Source: Natrarchaeobius chitinivorans
GTDB lineage: Archaea; Halobacteriota; Halobacteria; Halobacteriales; Natrialbaceae
DNA: 64,000 bases
Assembly (NCBI RefSeq): GCF_003841505.1
Contig: NZ_REGA01000022.1
Coordinates: 1 to 64,000, forward strand
Direction: 5' to 3'
The translations under genes and the position numbers were made by a program. Shown here piece by piece: positions 11,177 to 57,022 of the stretch (within the stretch, counting starts at the first letter, position 1; every line of letters starts with the position of its first letter). The notes below the pieces were generated by a model. The model ran no database searches. It was not told the origin of the DNA and saw only the letters and a list, made by a program, of their open reading frames with translations.

Positions 11177-11863
11177 TCAGTTCCCGTGGACGGTGACCGA
11201 CTCGAGGAGGACGTCCTCGGTCGGCCGGCCGTGTTCGTCCGTCTCGACGCTGCCGATCTCGCGGACGACGTCCATGCCCTCGACGACGGTGCCGAAGACG
11301 GCGTGATCACCGTCGAGGTGTGGCTGGGCGTCGAGCGTGATGAAAAACTGCGAGCCGTTGGTATCCGGCCCGGAGTTTGCCATGCTCAAAATCCCGGCGT
11401 CGTCGTGGCGCAGGTCGTCGTGGAACTCGTCGTCGAACTCGTAGCCCGGACCGCCCCGTCCCGTGCCAGTCGGATCGCCCGTCTGGATCATGAAGCCGTC
11501 GATGACGCGGTGAAAGAGCACGTCGTCGTACAGCGGTTCGTCTTCCACCTCTTCGCCCGTCTCGGGATCCGTCCAGGCCCTCTCGCCGGTCGCGAGGCCG
11601 ACGAAGTTGTCGACGGTTCGCGGCGCACGTTCGTCGTAGAGTTTGGCTACGACGTCTCCGTGGCTCGTACGAAGCGTCGCCGCGAGCGATTCGGGATCGG
11701 TGTGAGCGTCGCCGTCACTGGCGGCGACCGAATCGGAGTCGATACTCGAGTCGTCATCACCGGCATCCGATCCGTCGTTCGTCCCGTCACCCGCTTTGCC
11801 GTCGACTGACTCGCCGTCGCTCGAGCAGCCGGCGACCGTACTTCCGACACACACACCAGTCAC
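11177..11863 (-). CDS. Secreted cyclophilin-type peptidyl-prolyl isomerase, lipoprotein
   Basis: 228 residues from GTG 11863. The cyclophilin core contains RTVDNFVGLATGE, FHRVIDGFMIQTGDPTGTGR, MANSGPDTNGSQFFITL and HLDGDHAVFGTVVEGMDVV, carrying the catalytic Arg and the Gln/Phe site. A lipobox ending STVAGC precedes an acidic linker, so it should be membrane-anchored outside the cell. The frame stays open upstream and reads N-R-R-T-L-L-A-V before the GTG, a twin-arginine signal, but its first codon at 11887-11885 is ATC, not ATG. The true start is therefore uncertain. The core is nearly identical in DNA to the next gene. Confidence 0.85.
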   Translation of the reverse strand: MTGVCVGSTVAGCSSDGESVDGKAGDGTNDGSDAGDDDSSIDSDSVAASDGDAHTDPESLAATLRTSHGDVVAKLYDERAPRTVDNFVGLATGERAWTDPETGEEVEDEPLYDDVLFHRVIDGFMIQTGDPTGTGRGGPGYEFDDEFHDDLRHDDAGILSMANSGPDTNGSQFFITLDAQPHLDGDHAVFGTVVEGMDVVREIGSVETDEHGRPTEDVLLESVTVHGN

Positions 11864-11954: not shown

Positions 11955-12473
11955 CTACTCGTAGTCGACGGAGACCGACTCGAGGAGGACCTCCTCCCGA
12001 GGCTGGTCGTTTGGACCGGTGTCGACGCTCCCGATTTCGCGGACGACGTCCATGCCGTCGATTACCTTTCCGAACACCGAGTGGCGGTCGTCGAGGTGTG
12101 GCTGGGCGTCGAGCGTGATGAAAAACTGCGAGCCGTTGGTGTCCGGCCCGGAGTTTGCCATGCTCAAAATCCCGGCGTCGTCGTGGCGCAGGTCGTCGTG
12201 GAACTCGTCGTCGAACTCGTAGCCCGGACCGCCACGTCCCGTGCCGGTCGGATCGCCGCCCTGAATCATGAAGTCCTCGATAACCCGGTGAAAGACCACG
12301 TCGTCGTACAGCGGTTCCCCCTCCACTTCCTCGCCCGTCTCGGGGTCTGTCCAGGTCTTCCCGCCGGTCGCGAGGCCGACGAAGTTGTCGACGGTTCGCG
12401 GCGCGCGGTCGTCGTAGAGTTCGACGTCGATGTCGCCCTTGCTCGTGTGCAGGGTTGCAGTAACGTTGCCCAT
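11955..12473 (-). CDS. Cytosolic cyclophilin-type peptidyl-prolyl isomerase
   Basis: 172 residues, starting MGNVTATLHTSKGDIDVELY, with no signal sequence. The core motifs FHRVIEDFMIQGGDPTGTGR, NSGPDTNGSQFFITLDAQ and HSVFGKVIDGMDVVREIGS are complete, so it should catalyse cis-trans isomerisation of Xaa-Pro bonds. The neighbouring lipoprotein gene shares long nearly identical DNA over the core, pointing to tandem duplication followed by gene conversion; the intracellular copy kept the short form. Confidence 0.9.
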   Translation of the reverse strand: MGNVTATLHTSKGDIDVELYDDRAPRTVDNFVGLATGGKTWTDPETGEEVEGEPLYDDVVFHRVIEDFMIQGGDPTGTGRGGPGYEFDDEFHDDLRHDDAGILSMANSGPDTNGSQFFITLDAQPHLDDRHSVFGKVIDGMDVVREIGSVDTGPNDQPREEVLLESVSVDYE

Positions 12474-16752: not shown

Positions 16753-16940
16753 CGTCCGAATATCCGCGAGGGGATGGAAAAACCGTTCGATATATCGGTT
16801 CGTGTGGCCTGCTGTGACGACGTACCGGCACAGCCGCGCCCGCCGGTGGCTCTACCGGTGGGGATTTCCAATGGGCCGTCTCCGAGTGTACCGGTGGATA
16901 TTTTCGATGGGCTGTCTCAGATCGTATCCACCGTCGTTTC

Positions 16941-17022
16941 ATACGTCTTACTGTACGTCATTGCCGGCGAACCCGCGACCCGGGCGGCGGGTGCGCCGGT
17001 ACACAGTTACAGTAATCCGTAT
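16941..17022. repeat. Palindromic repeat family B, copy at rdfA/gcdH gap
   Basis: 82 bp. Left arm ATACGTCTTACTGTACGTCA, right arm ending ACAGTAATCCGTAT; the centre also pairs (CCGGCG...CGCCGG). It lies just outside the stop of the dehydrogenase gene. A nearby 36-bp direct duplication (TACCGGTGG units at 16853 and 16889) adds to the repetitive nature of 16753-17025, where I see no gene. Confidence 0.75.
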
Positions 17023-19397: not shown

Positions 19398-19407
19398 GTA
19401 TCGACTG

Positions 19408-19489
19408 ATACGGACTGCTGTACGTCATTACCGGAGCGACCGGACGCCGTCCCGCGGTTGCTCCGGTACACAGGTACAGCAATCCGTAT
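19408..19489. repeat. Palindromic repeat family B, intergenic copy
   Basis: 82 bp from ATACGGACTGCTGTACGTCA to TACAGCAATCCGTAT. Outer arms of about 16 bp pair well, and CCGGAGCGACCGG near the centre pairs with its opposite arm. It starts 11 bp after element C. Confidence 0.8.
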
Positions 19490-32033: not shown

Positions 32034-32471
32034 CCGCTTTCGCTTCTTGCCGCCCGCAAAACGGCCGTACTCGAATTTATACCGACTTCCGTCCCGAGTC
32101 ACGCGACGACGGCCGGAATCGTCCACGCGAGGGTACGAGGTGAACGTGGGGACGAGCGAGCGACACGATGAGAAGTGTAGCGGAACGACCCGGCGACGCC
32201 GGAGCGGACGAATCGTTCCCATTCCGACCGCTGTAGCCACGGAGAACACGTCTCCGCAACCAACTCCGAGTGGATTACCTGATACGGATTGCTGTACCGA
32301 TGTCCCGGCGAACCCGCCGCCCGGGTCGCGGGTGCGCCGGAAATGACTACAGTAAACCGTATGAGTCCGTTCACGAGCGTCGACTGCTGAGTGAAATCGG
32401 ATCACACCGCAGAATTTCGCACATCAGTTCGGGCCTGGAACGCCACCGAGGTCGTCCGAAGGGAGCAAACG
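32034..32471. other. Intergenic region with a family B repeat
   Basis: 438 bp between the small gene set and the stop of kptA. Apart from the palindromic repeat at 32282-32362 I see no gene, RNA or promoter. Confidence 0.5.
32282..32362. repeat. Palindromic repeat family B, copy downstream of kptA
   Basis: 81 bp from ATACGGATTGCTGTACCGAT to ACTACAGTAAACCGTAT, the best example of the consensus arms, with an inner CCCGGCG...CGCCGG pairing. Confidence 0.8.
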
Positions 32472-50039: not shown

Positions 50040-50394
50040 CGGGAGAGACTCGGAGAGCCGCGACTAAACCGCCTTCGGATCGCTCGAACCGGAGCCGTGA
50101 ACTGACCCGATACGGGTTACTGGAAGACAGTTCCGACACACCTGCCGCCCGAGTCGTGAGTGTGCCGGGACATCGGTACAACAATCCGTCTAAATCGTGG
50201 GGGTTCGATCAAATCCCCAGAAACGGTGTCGACCGAACCGATTCGTCGAACCCACAGCCGGCTCGCGGATCAGTCTCGGTAAGCAATCATTACCGAGTTG
50301 AATCGACGCGAACGATCCGATTCCTGCAAACGGAGGGCGCGTTTTACGTCACTCCAGTCCCTACTGATCGAGTAACGAGCGATACACCCCCCAG
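50040..50394. other. Intergenic region with a family B repeat
   Basis: 355 bp between the divergent rnz and the surface-protein gene. Besides the repeat at 50110-50191 I see no gene; TCACTCCAGTCCC and neighbouring AT patches near 50285 may hold the promoters. Confidence 0.5.
50110..50191. repeat. Palindromic repeat family B, degenerate copy
   Basis: 82 bp from ATACGGGTTACTGGAAGACA to GTACAACAATCCGTCT. Arms are less perfect than in the copies at 19408 and 32282, showing this copy is older. Confidence 0.65.
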
Positions 50395-52854: not shown

Positions 52855-52998
52855 TCAGAAGACGGAGCCAGTGAGCGGCGTGCCGTCGGACCACTGGTCG
52901 TCTCCGGTGCCGACTTTGTCCTGCTGGGTGATTGATTCGACGGTGCCGTACTCGGTCAGTTCCGGCGCTTCGTACCGCTTCGAGTTGCGTTCAGACAT
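52855..52998 (-). CDS. Lasso peptide precursor (leader plus core)
   Basis: A 47-residue gene with start ATG at 52998 and stop TGA at 52857-52855. Tyr9, Pro12, Leu14, Gly18 and Thr24 fit the lasso leader motif YxxPxLxxxGxxxxxT exactly (YEAPELTEYGTVESIT). Thr24 at leader position -2 predicts cleavage after Gln25, giving a 22-residue core beginning Gln-Asp-Lys-Val-Gly with Asp33 and Asp34 at core positions 8 and 9, either of which could close an 8- or 9-residue macrolactam. Trp36 and Phe47 are tail aromatics. A Gln at core position 1 is unusual (Gly is most common). It follows the cyclase gene by 48 bp and has its own TATA box. Confidence 0.85.
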   Translation of the reverse strand: MSERNSKRYEAPELTEYGTVESITQQDKVGTGDDQWSDGTPLTGSVF

Positions 52999-53022
52999 CA
53001 AATTAGTATTATTCCCCCGCCC

Positions 53023-53031
53023 ATATAAATT
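53023..53031 (-). promoter_or_regulatory. TATA box of the lasso precursor gene
   Basis: TTTATATGG on the minus strand lies about 28 bp before the ATG at 52998, with an AT-rich spacer. It suggests a short or absent leader RNA and transcription of the precursor separately from, and probably more strongly than, the enzyme genes. Confidence 0.65.
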
Positions 53032-53046
53032 TCATTGTTTTATATC

Positions 53047-54957
53047 CTAATGATTGGTCGTCGGGACGTCGTACTCTTCTCGAGGGGGTGAGCCGGTCGA
53101 GTCGAGCCAGACCGAAAGCGAGAGCGCACGCCAGAGCGCGCGAGCGTCGCGTGAGGTCGGCTCGTTCTCGAACCGATCGACGGCGGCCTCGAGCGCATCG
53201 ATGTCGAGATACCGCGTGACTGGCCCCGGGTCGGCGACGAGTTCCGCAAGCCGGTCGGTCTCGAGTGTGAGTTCGTTCCAGAACGCCTCGTTCATCATCG
53301 TCTTCCAGGGACGACGGCGAATCGGCTCGGGAAGGAGGTCCTCGAGCGACCGACGGACGAGCGATCTGGTCCACCCGTCCGCGAACTGCTGGCGGGGTGA
53401 GATTGCAAGCGAAAATTCGAGGAGTCGCCTATCGGCGAACGGATATCGTGGCTCGACGCCGAACGCGCCGGCGATCAGATCGGCCGTCTCGAAGTTCGCG
53501 ACGTTTCGTCCGGCCGTGATCGACCGGTACTGGCGTTTGCGGTCCGTACTTCGGACGAACACCGAACCGGGCGAGGAGAGCGTTCGATACCGGGATCGGA
53601 GGTCGGTCCGGTCGACGAACGAGGGATCGAGCGTCGGGTTCGCGCGCGCGACGAGCACCGGTTGCCCGCGGCGGCGTCGCCGACGACGTTTGACCGGTTC
53701 GGGGACGAGCGGAGCCACGACGTGGCGGGCGAACAGGTGCCAAACAGGTGCGTCCGCGACGTCGCTCATCGCCCGAAGTTCTCGAGAGAGGGCGAGCCAC
53801 CGGCCCGTGCGAAAGAGCTGTGGTAATAGACCCAGCCCGTAGTTGATCGCGCTGTCGCCGAGTGCGCCGCTCAACGCGACGTCGACGCCGGCTTCGGCGG
53901 CACGCTCCGCGAGTTTCCACTCTCCGAAGTGGATCGTGTTGTGTGGCGGCCTGTCGAACTGTCGAGTCAGTCGGTCCCGGTCGACCAGCGCGCCACACCC
54001 CTCCGGAGACACGTAGTGTGACTCGATTCCCGGTCGATCGACTACCGTCTCGACGAACTCCCGCTCGTCGCTCGAGGGTGCATCGTCGAAGACGTTCGAG
54101 AACGTATGAAGCGTCTCGGTCTCTGGTAGTAGATCCCTCGCGACGACGGTAACCGACGACGAATCCAGACCGCCGCTGAGCTGTGCGCCCACGGGACCCG
54201 ACGACCTGAGTCGGCAGCCGACCGCCTCCTCGAGCAGTTCGCGAAACCGGCGTTCGTAGGCCGTATCCGACTCGAGGGATATCGTCCGCGTCGGATCGAG
54301 ATCCCAGTATCGCCACTGGTCGATCCCCGCCGAATCGACACACATCGCGTGGGCCGGCGGGAGGCGATCGATAGCCTCGCAAAACGTCCGCCGCTCGTCC
54401 TCGAGGACGCCCGTGAGGAAGTCGCCGATCGTCGTCTCGTCGACGTCGGCGGACACCGTCGGGACGGTCAGCAACGCCCTGAGTTCGGTGCCGAACGCGA
54501 AGCGATCGGCCGATCGGTGATAGTAGAAGGGCTTGATTCCGACGTGGTCTCGAGCACAGAACAGCGTCTTCTCGGTCCGGTTCCAGATCGCAAACGCGAA
54601 CGCGCCGATCAGGTGGTCGACGCACCGACTCCCCCACCGTCGGTAAGCCAGAACCACCAGTTCGCTGTCCGGCACCCGATTCGACGCGCCAGCGGTCGGG
54701 AGCGTCCGGAGTAACTCCTCGCGGTTGTCGATCCGTGCGTCGACGACGCCGACGAGATCGCCGTCGCGAACGGGCTGGTCGTCGAATCGGGCTTCCGGAG
54801 TCGTCGAGAGCAACTGGTGGCCGAGGCCGACCGGCCCCGCACACCACCGTCCGCCACCGTCCGGACCGCGGTGACCGAGACGGTCGTGCATCCGCTCGAG
54901 TTCCGCGTCGCCGATGTGACCGCCCCCGCGGTCGACGACGCCGACGATCGCGCTCAC
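53047..54957 (-). CDS. Lasso peptide cyclase (asparagine-synthetase-like, C protein)
   Basis: 636 residues. The N-terminal glutaminase-like domain starts MSAIVGVVD, so Ser replaces the catalytic Cys2 and no glutamine is used, as in lasso cyclases; HRGPDGGG is at 29-36. The synthetase domain has PVGAQLSGGLDSSSVTVVAR (PP-loop, 261-268), then ALSGALGDSAINYG and RYPFADRRLLEFSLAI. It would adenylate the Asp side chain and close the macrolactam with the core N-terminus. The GTG start overlaps the B2 stop. An Arg/Pro-rich stretch near 420-430 is unusual. Confidence 0.85.
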   Translation of the reverse strand: MSAIVGVVDRGGGHIGDAELERMHDRLGHRGPDGGGRWCAGPVGLGHQLLSTTPEARFDDQPVRDGDLVGVVDARIDNREELLRTLPTAGASNRVPDSELVVLAYRRWGSRCVDHLIGAFAFAIWNRTEKTLFCARDHVGIKPFYYHRSADRFAFGTELRALLTVPTVSADVDETTIGDFLTGVLEDERRTFCEAIDRLPPAHAMCVDSAGIDQWRYWDLDPTRTISLESDTAYERRFRELLEEAVGCRLRSSGPVGAQLSGGLDSSSVTVVARDLLPETETLHTFSNVFDDAPSSDEREFVETVVDRPGIESHYVSPEGCGALVDRDRLTRQFDRPPHNTIHFGEWKLAERAAEAGVDVALSGALGDSAINYGLGLLPQLFRTGRWLALSRELRAMSDVADAPVWHLFARHVVAPLVPEPVKRRRRRRRGQPVLVARANPTLDPSFVDRTDLRSRYRTLSSPGSVFVRSTDRKRQYRSITAGRNVANFETADLIAGAFGVEPRYPFADRRLLEFSLAISPRQQFADGWTRSLVRRSLEDLLPEPIRRRPWKTMMNEAFWNELTLETDRLAELVADPGPVTRYLDIDALEAAVDRFENEPTSRDARALWRALSLSVWLDSTGSPPREEYDVPTTNH

Positions 54958-55490
54958 GGTTCACCCGGATCGGCAAGCGGCGGTAGCGGTTCGAACCGGG
55001 AGAGGTCCTCGAGATCGCCGAGAATCACCGTCCCGTCGTGTTCGATCCAGCTGTGGGCCTCGAACTCGCCACCACCGGGTCGATCGATATCGATCTCGTC
55101 GCCGGCGCTACCCGTGGTGTGGTCACCGTCGTCGGAGGTGTCCACAGCGTGTTCGTCGCCGGGACCGTCCGGATCGACGCCGATCCGGTGAACGACGTCG
55201 TGGCCGTACGCGCTGTGAATCGCCTCCGAAGTCAACGACCGCATCAGACAGGTTCGATGTCCCGGGATGGTCCGGTCTGTCACCTCGACCGCCCAGGCGA
55301 CGCGAACGGGAGGCGGTGAGCCTGGAACGATCCGCGACAGCGACGACGACAGCGCGAGCAACCGCCGTCTGAACGCGGCGAACGACACGACGACGAAGCT
55401 GAGACGAACGACCAGTAACAATACCGCCGCCGTCACGATTCGCCCTTTGTCTCCGATCGACACCGCGAGAAATCCGGTAACTCGACCCAT
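54954..55490 (-). CDS. Lasso peptide leader protease B2 (transglutaminase-like)
   Basis: 178 residues. The transglutaminase-like triad is visible: Cys81 in PGHRTCLMRSLTSEAIHSAY, His146 in EAHSWIE and Asp159 in VILGD. Two hydrophobic stretches in the first 50 residues suggest membrane association. Residues about 106-140 form an Asp/Gly-rich insert not usual in bacterial B2 proteins and probably a halophilic adaptation. B2 removes the leader after the RRE protein delivers it. It begins 18 bp after the RRE gene stop and overlaps the cyclase gene start by 4 bp. Confidence 0.85.
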   Translation of the reverse strand: MGRVTGFLAVSIGDKGRIVTAAVLLLVVRLSFVVVSFAAFRRRLLALSSSLSRIVPGSPPPVRVAWAVEVTDRTIPGHRTCLMRSLTSEAIHSAYGHDVVHRIGVDPDGPGDEHAVDTSDDGDHTTGSAGDEIDIDRPGGGEFEAHSWIEHDGTVILGDLEDLSRFEPLPPLADPGEP

Positions 55491-55508
55491 GGGTGGTCTC
55501 GACGTCAG

Positions 55509-55820
55509 TTACTCCTCGCGATCGGGTTCGATCTCGACGAGGCCGGCCTCGGAGAAGTCGGCCAGTATCGAGTCGATGTCGCCCGTACACTCCTCTGGAG
55601 AGACGTCGTACTCGTCACTGACGTACTCGCGGAGTTGCGCGACCGTTCGTGGCTGCTGGAGCGAGTCCCAGAGCGACGATGCCACCCCGTTCAAACCGTA
55701 GTATTGCCCCGATTCCAGGTGCAAGATGACGGCCTCGCCGTCGATCGTCGTCGCCAGGTGATCGTCAGTCGCGACGACTTCGGCCGAATCCGATAGTTCA
55801 CCCACATTCGTTTCTCCCAT
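55509..55820 (-). CDS. PqqD-like leader-recognition protein (RRE, B1)
   Basis: 103 residues. The PqqD/RRE fold is recognisable: an extended N-terminal strand region (HLATTIDGEAVILHLESGQY), the turn YYGLNGVASSLWDSLQQPRT, then VAQLREYVSDEYDVSPEECT and IDSILADFSEAGLVEIE, the usual beta-strand/three-helix order. In lasso systems this B1 protein binds the leader (the Tyr-Pro-Leu motif) and hands it to B2. First gene of the cluster, starting from a shared control region. Confidence 0.8.
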   Translation of the reverse strand: MGETNVGELSDSAEVVATDDHLATTIDGEAVILHLESGQYYGLNGVASSLWDSLQQPRTVAQLREYVSDEYDVSPEECTGDIDSILADFSEAGLVEIEPDREE

Positions 55821-55878
55821 ACATTCGTTACTATTTTCTCAATAGTATAAATTTGTATATATTGGACGAATAATCGAA
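55821..55878. promoter_or_regulatory. Bidirectional promoter between the lasso operon and the membrane-gene pair
   Basis: Only 58 bp separate divergent starts. A minus-strand AATTTATACTATTGAG box lies about 30 bp before the RRE gene ATG, and a plus-strand TGTATATATTGG box about 25 bp before the ATG at 55879. The two boxes overlap, so one regulator could control both sides. Confidence 0.55.
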
Positions 55879-56502
55879 ATGCCGTTTACGCTCCGGTCCA
55901 AACACCACCTATCGCAGCCGATGATGAAACGTCCACTGCAGTCGAAACCGGAGCCCTTCGGCCAGCTAGGGAGAGGACTCGCGGCCGCGTTCCTGTTCGT
56001 CGTCCTCGTTGGACTGCTGATCTGGTATGGATCGACCAGACCGGCGATACTCGAGGCGATTTCGCCGGGCAGTCTCGAGGGGCTCACGCCCGTCCTCGAG
56101 CGCGTGTTTCCGCTGACCGACAGGCCACCTACGCGGGAGTCGTGGGAAACGACGTACATGTACTACATCTCGTGGGTCGGCGGCATCTGGACGACGATCC
56201 GGTTCGTCCAGGGGTGGCGGTTCGACCGTGAACGGCTCGCGTTCGTTCCGCGAGCACGACACCGGACGATCCTCGACGCGTGGAAGCGTCTCACCCACCC
56301 ACGCGAGAGCGATCCACGAAACACTGACCTCGAGCAGCCAAAGCCAGAGTCCGGCCTCGAGCGGCGAAGGCAAGAATCCAAACTCGAGCGGCGAAGGCAA
56401 GAATCCAAACTCGAGCGGCGGACGCGAGAATCCGGACTCGATCACACACGAAAACCCGGACTCGATCCCGACCCATCCGACGACGGAGGTTCGGATGGCT
56501 GA
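55879..56502 (+). CDS. Membrane protein with a 9-residue tandem-repeat tail
   Basis: 207 residues. Two hydrophobic segments (GLAAAFLFVVLVGLLIWYGS near 33-52 and the MYYISWVGGIWTTIRFVQGW region near 95-115) flank an external loop, followed by a cytosolic tail of about 90 residues with ERRRQESKL-type repeats encoded by a 27-bp tandem repeat. I do not recognise the family. Being divergent from the lasso operon and overlapping the next gene by 8 bp, it may serve in export or self-protection of the peptide, but this is inference. Confidence 0.6.
   Translation: MPFTLRSKHHLSQPMMKRPLQSKPEPFGQLGRGLAAAFLFVVLVGLLIWYGSTRPAILEAISPGSLEGLTPVLERVFPLTDRPPTRESWETTYMYYISWVGGIWTTIRFVQGWRFDRERLAFVPRARHRTILDAWKRLTHPRESDPRNTDLEQPKPESGLERRRQESKLERRRQESKLERRTRESGLDHTRKPGLDPDPSDDGGSDG
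56347..56442. repeat. 27-bp tandem repeat in the membrane-protein tail
   Basis: Units begin at 56347, 56374, 56401 and 56428 (the last partial), each near GAATCCAAACTCGAGCGGCG. The translated unit is ESKLERRRQ or a variant. Confidence 0.85.
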
Positions 56503-57022
56503 CGTTCTGACCCACGTCCTGGCCGGCTACGTCATCGGCTCGCTCGTCGCGCTCCGATACGACTGGGCGAGGACGCCACACGTAACCATGGTCATGATCG
56601 GAGCCCTCTCACCGGACTTCAAGAAGATCGACCACGTGATCACCGACGGTATGGTCACGAGTGCCCTCGGGATTCCCTGGGGGTGGACGGCGCTTCACAC
56701 CACCGGTGGCACGATCGTCGTGGCCCTGCTCGGCTCGTTACTGGTCGCGCCGGGCCACCGCAAACGCGTGATCGCGTTGATCGTGATCGGGGCAGCGTCC
56801 CACCACGTGCTGGACCTGCTTCTCGTCAAAGGAACTGGATACACCTATCCCGTCCTCTGGCCGTTCGTGGAGTACCGACCGCCGGCCGGCGGACTCTACC
56901 TGAGCAGCGACCGCTGGCCCGCACTCCTCACCGGGACGATCGCGGCGGTTCTCTGGGGCGTTCGACGACGGTACGACCGGTCTCCCTCGAGCGGGTACGC
57001 CGATCCGGCCTCGAGGCCGTGA
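56495..57022 (+). CDS. YdjM/DUF457-type membrane-bound metal-dependent hydrolase
   Basis: 175 residues from the ATG at 56495, overlapping the preceding stop. MADVLTHVLAGYVIGSLVAL carries the conserved N-terminal His, followed by IGALSPDFKKIDHVI (Asp and His of the metal site), WGWTALHTTGGTIVVALLGS, and VIGAASHHVLDLLLVKGTGY (second His cluster). Several hydrophobic stretches. Members are membrane hydrolases of unknown substrate. Its place beside the lasso genes is suggestive only. Confidence 0.75.
   Translation: MADVLTHVLAGYVIGSLVALRYDWARTPHVTMVMIGALSPDFKKIDHVITDGMVTSALGIPWGWTALHTTGGTIVVALLGSLLVAPGHRKRVIALIVIGAASHHVLDLLLVKGTGYTYPVLWPFVEYRPPAGGLYLSSDRWPALLTGTIAAVLWGVRRRYDRSPSSGYADPASRP

Follow-up and report, generated by a model that had tools for sequence, protein, structure and literature searches.

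A rearranged haloarchaeal lasso-peptide locus with an easily overlooked precursor and a conserved Lys/Asp-framed segment predicted to form the ring

Where does a haloarchaeal lasso peptide close its ring, and is the short reading frame that would encode it a gene at all? Both questions are raised by a four-gene locus on the reverse strand of Natrarchaeobius chitinivorans contig NZ_REGA01000022.1 (assembly GCF_003841505.1), located between positions 52855 and 55820 of the 64,000-nucleotide stretch of DNA analyzed here, which is referred to as the window. Judged by its sequence, this is a haloarchaeal-type lasso-peptide biosynthetic locus, the tailoring and export module of which (an HPr-kinase-like protein, a fused ATP-binding cassette (ABC) transporter, and a nucleotidyltransferase of the NTP_transf_5 family) has moved elsewhere in the genome. 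The assignment as a haloarchaeal lasso locus with a genuine, easily overlooked precursor is well supported by family matches and homologues. Alignment of the precursors points to ring closure on a segment framed by an invariant Lys and an invariant Asp, off the position expected from the textbook lasso rule.

The genes are arranged in the order B1–B2–C–A. B1, the first gene of the B1–B2–C series (55509..55820), encodes a PqqD-like RiPP recognition element (RRE; RiPP, ribosomally synthesized and post-translationally modified peptide) of 103 residues that matches PF05402 at 2.5e-18. B2 (54954..55490) encodes a transglutaminase-like leader peptidase of 178 residues, which scores 76 bits against NF033537 (lasso_biosyn_B2) and matches PF13471 (Transglut_core3). 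C (53047..54957) encodes a lasso cyclase of 636 residues that resembles asparagine synthetase B, contains the ATP loop S261-G-G-L-D-S, and scores 604 bits against NF033535. A (52855..52998) encodes the 47-residue precursor MSERNSKRYEAPELTEYGTVESITQQDKVGTGDDQWSDGTPLTGSVF, which has haloarchaeal homologues and scores 24.3 bits against NF033521 (lasso_leader_L3). The scores of A, B2, and C each exceed the curated cut-off of the respective lasso model, that is, 19 bits for NF033521, 33 bits for NF033537, and 525 bits for NF033535. B1 matches the lasso PqqD models below cut-off, and a profile of the haloarchaeal B1 proteins matches the solved lasso RREs TbiB1 (5v1u, 1e-19) and TfuB1 (6jx3, 1e-8), the structures of which are lasso RRE–leader complexes (PMC13381572). 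The PqqD-like recognition protein of the original prediction, which had been made from the letters of the window, is borne out by these matches. The same prediction had described a tight order with 4-bp overlaps; the order stands, but only B2 and C overlap by 4 bp, with B1 and B2 being 18 bp and C and A 48 bp apart. No ATP-grasp family, the hallmark of graspetides, was found among the ten open reading frames (ORFs) scanned at the locus.

The reality of A was assessed in the genomes of 391 species of Halobacteria, in which the regions around B2 loci were searched for precursors. Near B1, B2, and C genes, 26 haloarchaeal precursors were found with a common leader and a Lys-x5-Asp core; 24 of them entered the alignment, and the two further ones are from Halosimplex salinum. 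Tyr9, Pro12, Gly18, Thr24, Lys28, Asp34, and Gly44 are invariant over the 24 aligned precursors, and position 14 is hydrophobic. A lack of conservation of the leader motif in homologues had been set beforehand as a refuting outcome, but the motif proved to be conserved. Between close pairs of A genes, substitutions are concentrated at third codon positions (e.g., 3/3/21). A profile of 21 haloarchaeal precursors finds a single copy in the genome, at 52858–52998, and no second precursor of the haloarchaeal type was detected with it; a scan of genome contigs with a single B2 sequence gave no match, and a cyclase alignment was used instead. The box TTTATA occurs at −31 of the start codons of both A (53024..53029) and B1 (55846..55851), and in many homologous A genes a TATA-like box precedes the ATG at −30 to −33. 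Hence, A looks like a protein-coding gene, and the promoter spacing indicates that it is probably transcribed on its own as a leaderless mRNA. A TTG start at 53001 was rejected in favor of the ATG at 52998, since the homologous ATGs align there and the TATA spacing fits. That such a precursor is easily missed, as had been proposed, is illustrated by its homologue on a plasmid of Halopiger xanaduensis, which is likewise unannotated in the (incomplete) gene table.

The leader of A can be read by the rule established for bacteria, with YxxPxL at −17 to −12 and Thr at −2 (PMC10368454). Its recognition segment Tyr9..Thr24 (YxxPxL...G.....T, 52927..52974) shows the predicted lasso spacing of Tyr9, Pro12, Leu14, Gly18, and Thr24, which is the canonical −17/−14/−12/−2 spacing if the core starts with Gln26. 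A core starting there, 22 residues long as first drawn, puts Asp33 and Asp34 at core positions 8 and 9. This fits the precursor of the window, which then has Thr at −2 and an acid at core position 7–9, but not its family: 12 of the 26 haloarchaeal precursors are then without Asp or Glu at positions 7–9, their acid lying at 10–13 in that register. The core register starting at Gln26 is therefore doubtful when the family is aligned. What remains constant in the haloarchaeal alignment is the length of [Asn/Asp/Glu]-Lys-x-Gly-x3-Asp34 (with Gln for Gly once), and it is the distance between Thr24 and Lys28 that varies. In the window, the predicted ring segment reads Asp27-Lys28-Val-Gly-Thr-Gly-Asp33-Asp34 (52897..52920). 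Asp33 was rejected as the ring acid, being variable in homologues (E/T/D/S/M/V/P/N), as opposed to the invariant Asp34, on which closure is well supported by the alignment. Two precursors with unequal Thr–Lys gaps accompany a single type-1 cyclase gene in each of the regions L034, L035, and L043.

Two sets of precursors served as controls. Type-2 haloarchaeal precursors (L035, L040, and L075; GxHFSxVD) follow a Gly1–Asp8 register, and the Thr(−2)/acid rule also holds for most precursors from cyanobacteria and other bacteria that are encoded next to related cyclases. The type-2 precursors, with the core GxHFSxVDGNSGTTGNRG, are located beside a divergent cyclase at L035:13295-13468, L040:4740-4943, and L075:3104-3256.

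The departure from the rule extends beyond haloarchaea. The rule is broken by 23 of the 70 precursors that were compared, and in 21 of the 23 a Lys precedes the Asp by six residues; in a shuffled-core control, this K-x5-D spacing occurred in a mean of 2.1 and a maximum of 7 rule-breakers in 2000 shuffles. One further rule-breaker with K-x5-D, L131, raises the count to 22 of 24. Outside the haloarchaeal type-1 family, K-x5-D is present in 9 of 11 rule-breakers as opposed to 2 of 33 rule-keepers (Fisher p ~4e-6, ignoring shared ancestry). The leader search pattern demanded a Thr, so that the constancy of Thr follows in part from the search itself, unlike the spacing result. The ten non-haloarchaeal K-x5-D precursors, which have K-x2-G-x2-D in common, belong to Rokubacteria, Chloroflexota, Acidobacteriota, and another archaeal lineage of the phylum (G594/L203). 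Precursors of this form, bacterial and archaeal, with a displaced Thr and hence a broken Thr(−2) rule, were observed at L122, L123, L131, L132, L145, and L203.

In B2, Cys81 and His146 of the proposed Cys81/His146/Asp159 triad are invariant among 16 haloarchaeal homologues, whereas several of them carry His or Glu in place of Asp159. No relative of B2 was found in the PDB by sequence. An acidic, Gly-rich insertion (residues ~107–143) is present in B2 of the window and its near relatives and missing from others. The SGGxDS residues of the cyclase are invariant in 19 homologues. Its residue 2 is Ser instead of Cys, as had been noted, and this is ordinary: relatives usually carry Ser, Gly, or Thr at that position.

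From these features, the following pathway may be proposed. B1 would bind Tyr9-xx-Pro12-x-Leu14, and B2 would remove the leader by means of Cys81 and His146. C would then adenylate the side chain of the invariant Asp34, not Asp33, and close the macrolactam, through which the tail Trp36...Phe47 may thread. That the product is a lasso-type macrolactam with its ring closed on Asp34 is probable, irrespective of the amine partner. As the best estimate, this partner would be the α-amine of residue 27, giving an eight-residue Asp1-Lys2...Asp8 ring, a choice to which we assign slightly less than an even chance. A start at residue 27 would require the cut to be displaced from the canonical site by one residue, away from Thr24; the predicted core is then 21 residues long (52858..52920), with a calculated monoisotopic mass of the macrolactam of 2162.98, compared with 2291.03 for a core from Gln26. 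Phosphorylation and glycosylation of Ser45 would probably be the task of the HPr-kinase-like protein and the NTP_transf_5 protein encoded on contig C11 of the same genome, and the product, plausibly an antagonistic or signaling peptide, may be exported by the ABC protein encoded next to them.

Several points weigh against the proposed pathway. The exactly canonical Tyr(−17)...Thr(−2) spacing is kept, with Gln or Glu after Thr24, which speaks for B2 still cutting after Gln25, and for the precursor of the window the canonical register Gln1–Asp9 is allowed. In the cyclase tree, the protein of the window falls in a haloarchaeal clade with 100/100 support and groups with relatives of its own family; cyclases with K-type precursors are scattered over several places in the tree, so that the shift would have to be recurrent. 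The involvement of the accessory module is assumed, since the module is unlinked. We know of no precedent for Asp at ring position 1. Asn, which replaces Asp27 in many haloarchaeal homologues, has an experimental precedent at this position in metanodin (PMC12670498).

The canonical lasso as first drawn is the alternative that survives best, although we consider it rather unlikely. Herein, B2 cuts after Gln25, the core comprises Gln26–Phe47, and the ring is Gln1–Asp8 or Gln1–Asp9. The exact leader spacing (Tyr-17, Pro-14, Leu-12, Thr-2) speaks for it, as does Gln1 in a predicted relative of metanodin (PMC12670498). Of its two rings, Gln1–Asp8 is improbable because Asp33 is not conserved, and Gln1–Asp9 suits only the precursors with the shortest gap, the others needing rings of 10–13 residues. 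Judged from the alignment, a start at the α-amine of Gln26 would be possible for the precursor of the window but not for its long-gap relatives, and a nine-residue ring from Gln26 is given a minor share of our confidence. Moreover, the invariant Lys28 is left unexplained.

It is this residue that the next alternative puts to use. If the canonical cut is kept family-wide and the cyclase connects Asp34 with the amine in the side chain of Lys28, a short free N-terminal tail is left in front of the ring. By arithmetic, such a ring has 26 atoms, near the 25 of an eight-residue lasso ring. It would account for a canonical leader that stays fixed while the gap in front of the Lys changes, and for the invariant Lys/Asp spacing in haloarchaeal, other archaeal, and bacterial precursors alike, and closure by the Lys28 side chain is the best account that the sequences offer of an invariant Lys combined with a fixed leader. 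Nevertheless, to our knowledge, no lasso cyclase uses a side-chain amine. The Asn, Asp, or Glu that always precedes the haloarchaeal Lys is not explained, a repeated origin on the cyclase tree is required, and the definition of a lasso peptide in PMC9266682 specifies the N-terminal α-amine. We regard the Lys28 side chain as an improbable ring partner, to be entertained only tentatively. Equally tentative is its generalization to a class across domains (haloarchaea, the other archaeal lineage, Chloroflexota, Rokubacteria, and Acidobacteriota), in which an asparagine-synthetase-type cyclase would link the side chain of the invariant Lys to the Asp six residues on and the leader cut need not fall at the first ring residue.

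Where the locus occurs in relatives from the genus and the family, A is followed by three convergent genes, which encode an HPr-kinase-like protein, a fused ABC transporter, and an NTP_transf_5 protein. In the window, synteny stops right after A, a replication-factor C gene comes next, and neither the kinase nor the nucleotidyltransferase nor the transporter gives a tblastn match. The trio is found on contig C11 at 46.1–50.2 kb (L108:6083-10167), so that the cluster, originally termed complete, is split. The kinase homologue on C11 matches the protein of the relatives in tblastn and has no HPr kinase score of its own in Pfam. Adjoining its end, a dispersed repeat of ~90 bp was observed (L108:5996-6097). 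Because synteny is broken directly past A and the three accessory genes lie on another contig, the locus might be read as a decayed, non-functional leftover of the rearrangement that split them off; however, the four genes are open and conserved, as is the separated module, and both TATA-like boxes are present, which leaves decay with little probability.

A candidate site for the accessory enzymes is Ser45 (52864..52866), two residues from the end of the precursor in a conserved L-x-G-S motif, where it may be phosphorylated or glycosylated. Gly44 of the motif adjoins a Ser in many homologues. PMC9266682 describes bacterial HPr-type kinases that phosphorylate a conserved Ser at the C terminus, and a nucleotidyltransferase, PsmN, whose action results in hexosylation; by analogy, Ser45 would be the natural candidate modification site.

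On the other side of B1, two companion genes are encoded on the forward strand. A small membrane protein (55879..56502), divergent from B1, is kept beside B1 in several type-1 clusters. It is followed by a PF04307 (YdjM-type) membrane protein (56495..57022; 46.9 bits), a gene for which is found close to the cluster in each of the 11 lasso-bearing genomes tested. With 7–13 copies per genome, its occurrence beside the cluster by chance is estimated at ~3% per locus, the loci not all being independent. The PF04307 protein may serve in immunity or in maturation.

A linear or non-threaded phosphorylated peptide, with the cyclase inactive or acting elsewhere, is the least probable product: haloarchaeal B1–B2–kinase–nucleotidyltransferase–ABC clusters with similar leaders and no cyclase do exist (L041-L054), genomes G154 and G036 are without any NF033535 match, and linear polyphosphorylated peptides (LPPs) have been published in Bacillota (PMC13381572), but C is intact, scores above the curated cut-off, keeps its SGGxDS loop, and accompanies a length-invariant K-x5-D precursor.

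The cyclase-less clusters are of interest in themselves. They contain B1, B2, a nucleotidyltransferase, and usually a kinase and an ABC transporter, together with short precursors such as MKEYETPSVETYGTVEEKTNWWDHDDGYGKWS, and no cyclase was detected in the region. Eleven belong to one genus (L041, L042, L044-L046, L048-L050, L052-L054), and others were seen at L032, L033, L047, L051, L057, and L074. In one such cluster, five consecutive precursor-like ORFs with YExPTLETYGxxESLTQ leaders are found at L032:13129-15334. Possibly, these clusters are archaeal counterparts of LPPs.

Elsewhere in the window, an imperfect repeat of ~89 bp is dispersed in both orientations (16934–17022, 19401–19489, 32275–32363, and 50103–50191) and also occurs on contig C11; it resembles a small mobile or REP-like element. 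Two direct repeats of 300 nucleotides (11186–11485 and 11964–12263) are 87% identical.

B2 scores above cut-off in 31 of the 391 Halobacteria genomes, and haloarchaeal lasso clusters have already been noted (PMC10093198, PMC12144867; also Tietz et al. 2017, cited by PMC7533575), including one on a plasmid of Halopiger xanaduensis (PMC10093198). The rarity claimed for archaeal lasso clusters does not hold up against this record, and what the window newly adds is a rearranged member of a known group. In the literature searched, which covered few subscription papers, neither a structurally characterized archaeal lasso peptide nor a Lys-closed lasso ring was found, and the K-x5-D family with its variable leader gap was not encountered. 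This family, common enough in haloarchaea for testing, breaks the Thr(−2)/acid-at-7–9 rule on which genome mining relies (e.g., PMC7533575). If K-x5-D marks a shifted cut or a Lys-closed ring, rule-based mining tools would miss or misdraw peptides in both domains, and a leader peptidase or a cyclase with undescribed specificity or chemistry would be involved. Beside lanthipeptides, haloarchaea would also gain another plausible class of RiPPs with antagonistic or signaling roles.

Among known systems, the locus of Halopiger xanaduensis, also from Natrialbaceae, is a close counterpart. Plasmid pHALXA01 (NC_015658.1; L038/L201) carries B1–B2–C, an unannotated K-type precursor, and a PF04307 protein upstream, as does the window. 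It differs in being a plasmid, in having the kinase-like, ABC, and nucleotidyltransferase genes linked, in a Thr–Lys gap that is one residue longer, and in its cyclase, which is 57% identical. The ring of metanodin begins with Asn, which is also the first ring residue predicted for many haloarchaeal homologues; unlike the peptide of the window, metanodin is gammaproteobacterial and follows the Thr(−2) rule, and the available part of PMC12670498 reports no Lys2 signature. LPPs resemble the system in their RRE, leader, kinase, NTP transferase, and transporter (PMC13381572), but lack a macrolactam cyclase, which is intact in the window. The paeninodin/pseudomycoidin type (PMC9266682) likewise combines lasso genes with an HPr-kinase-like enzyme and a nucleotidyltransferase and has a conserved Ser near the C terminus. 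Compared with it, the system of the window is archaeal, has a YxxP instead of a WxxP leader, bears its Ser two residues before the C terminus, and combines a K-x5-D ring segment with unlinked accessory genes.

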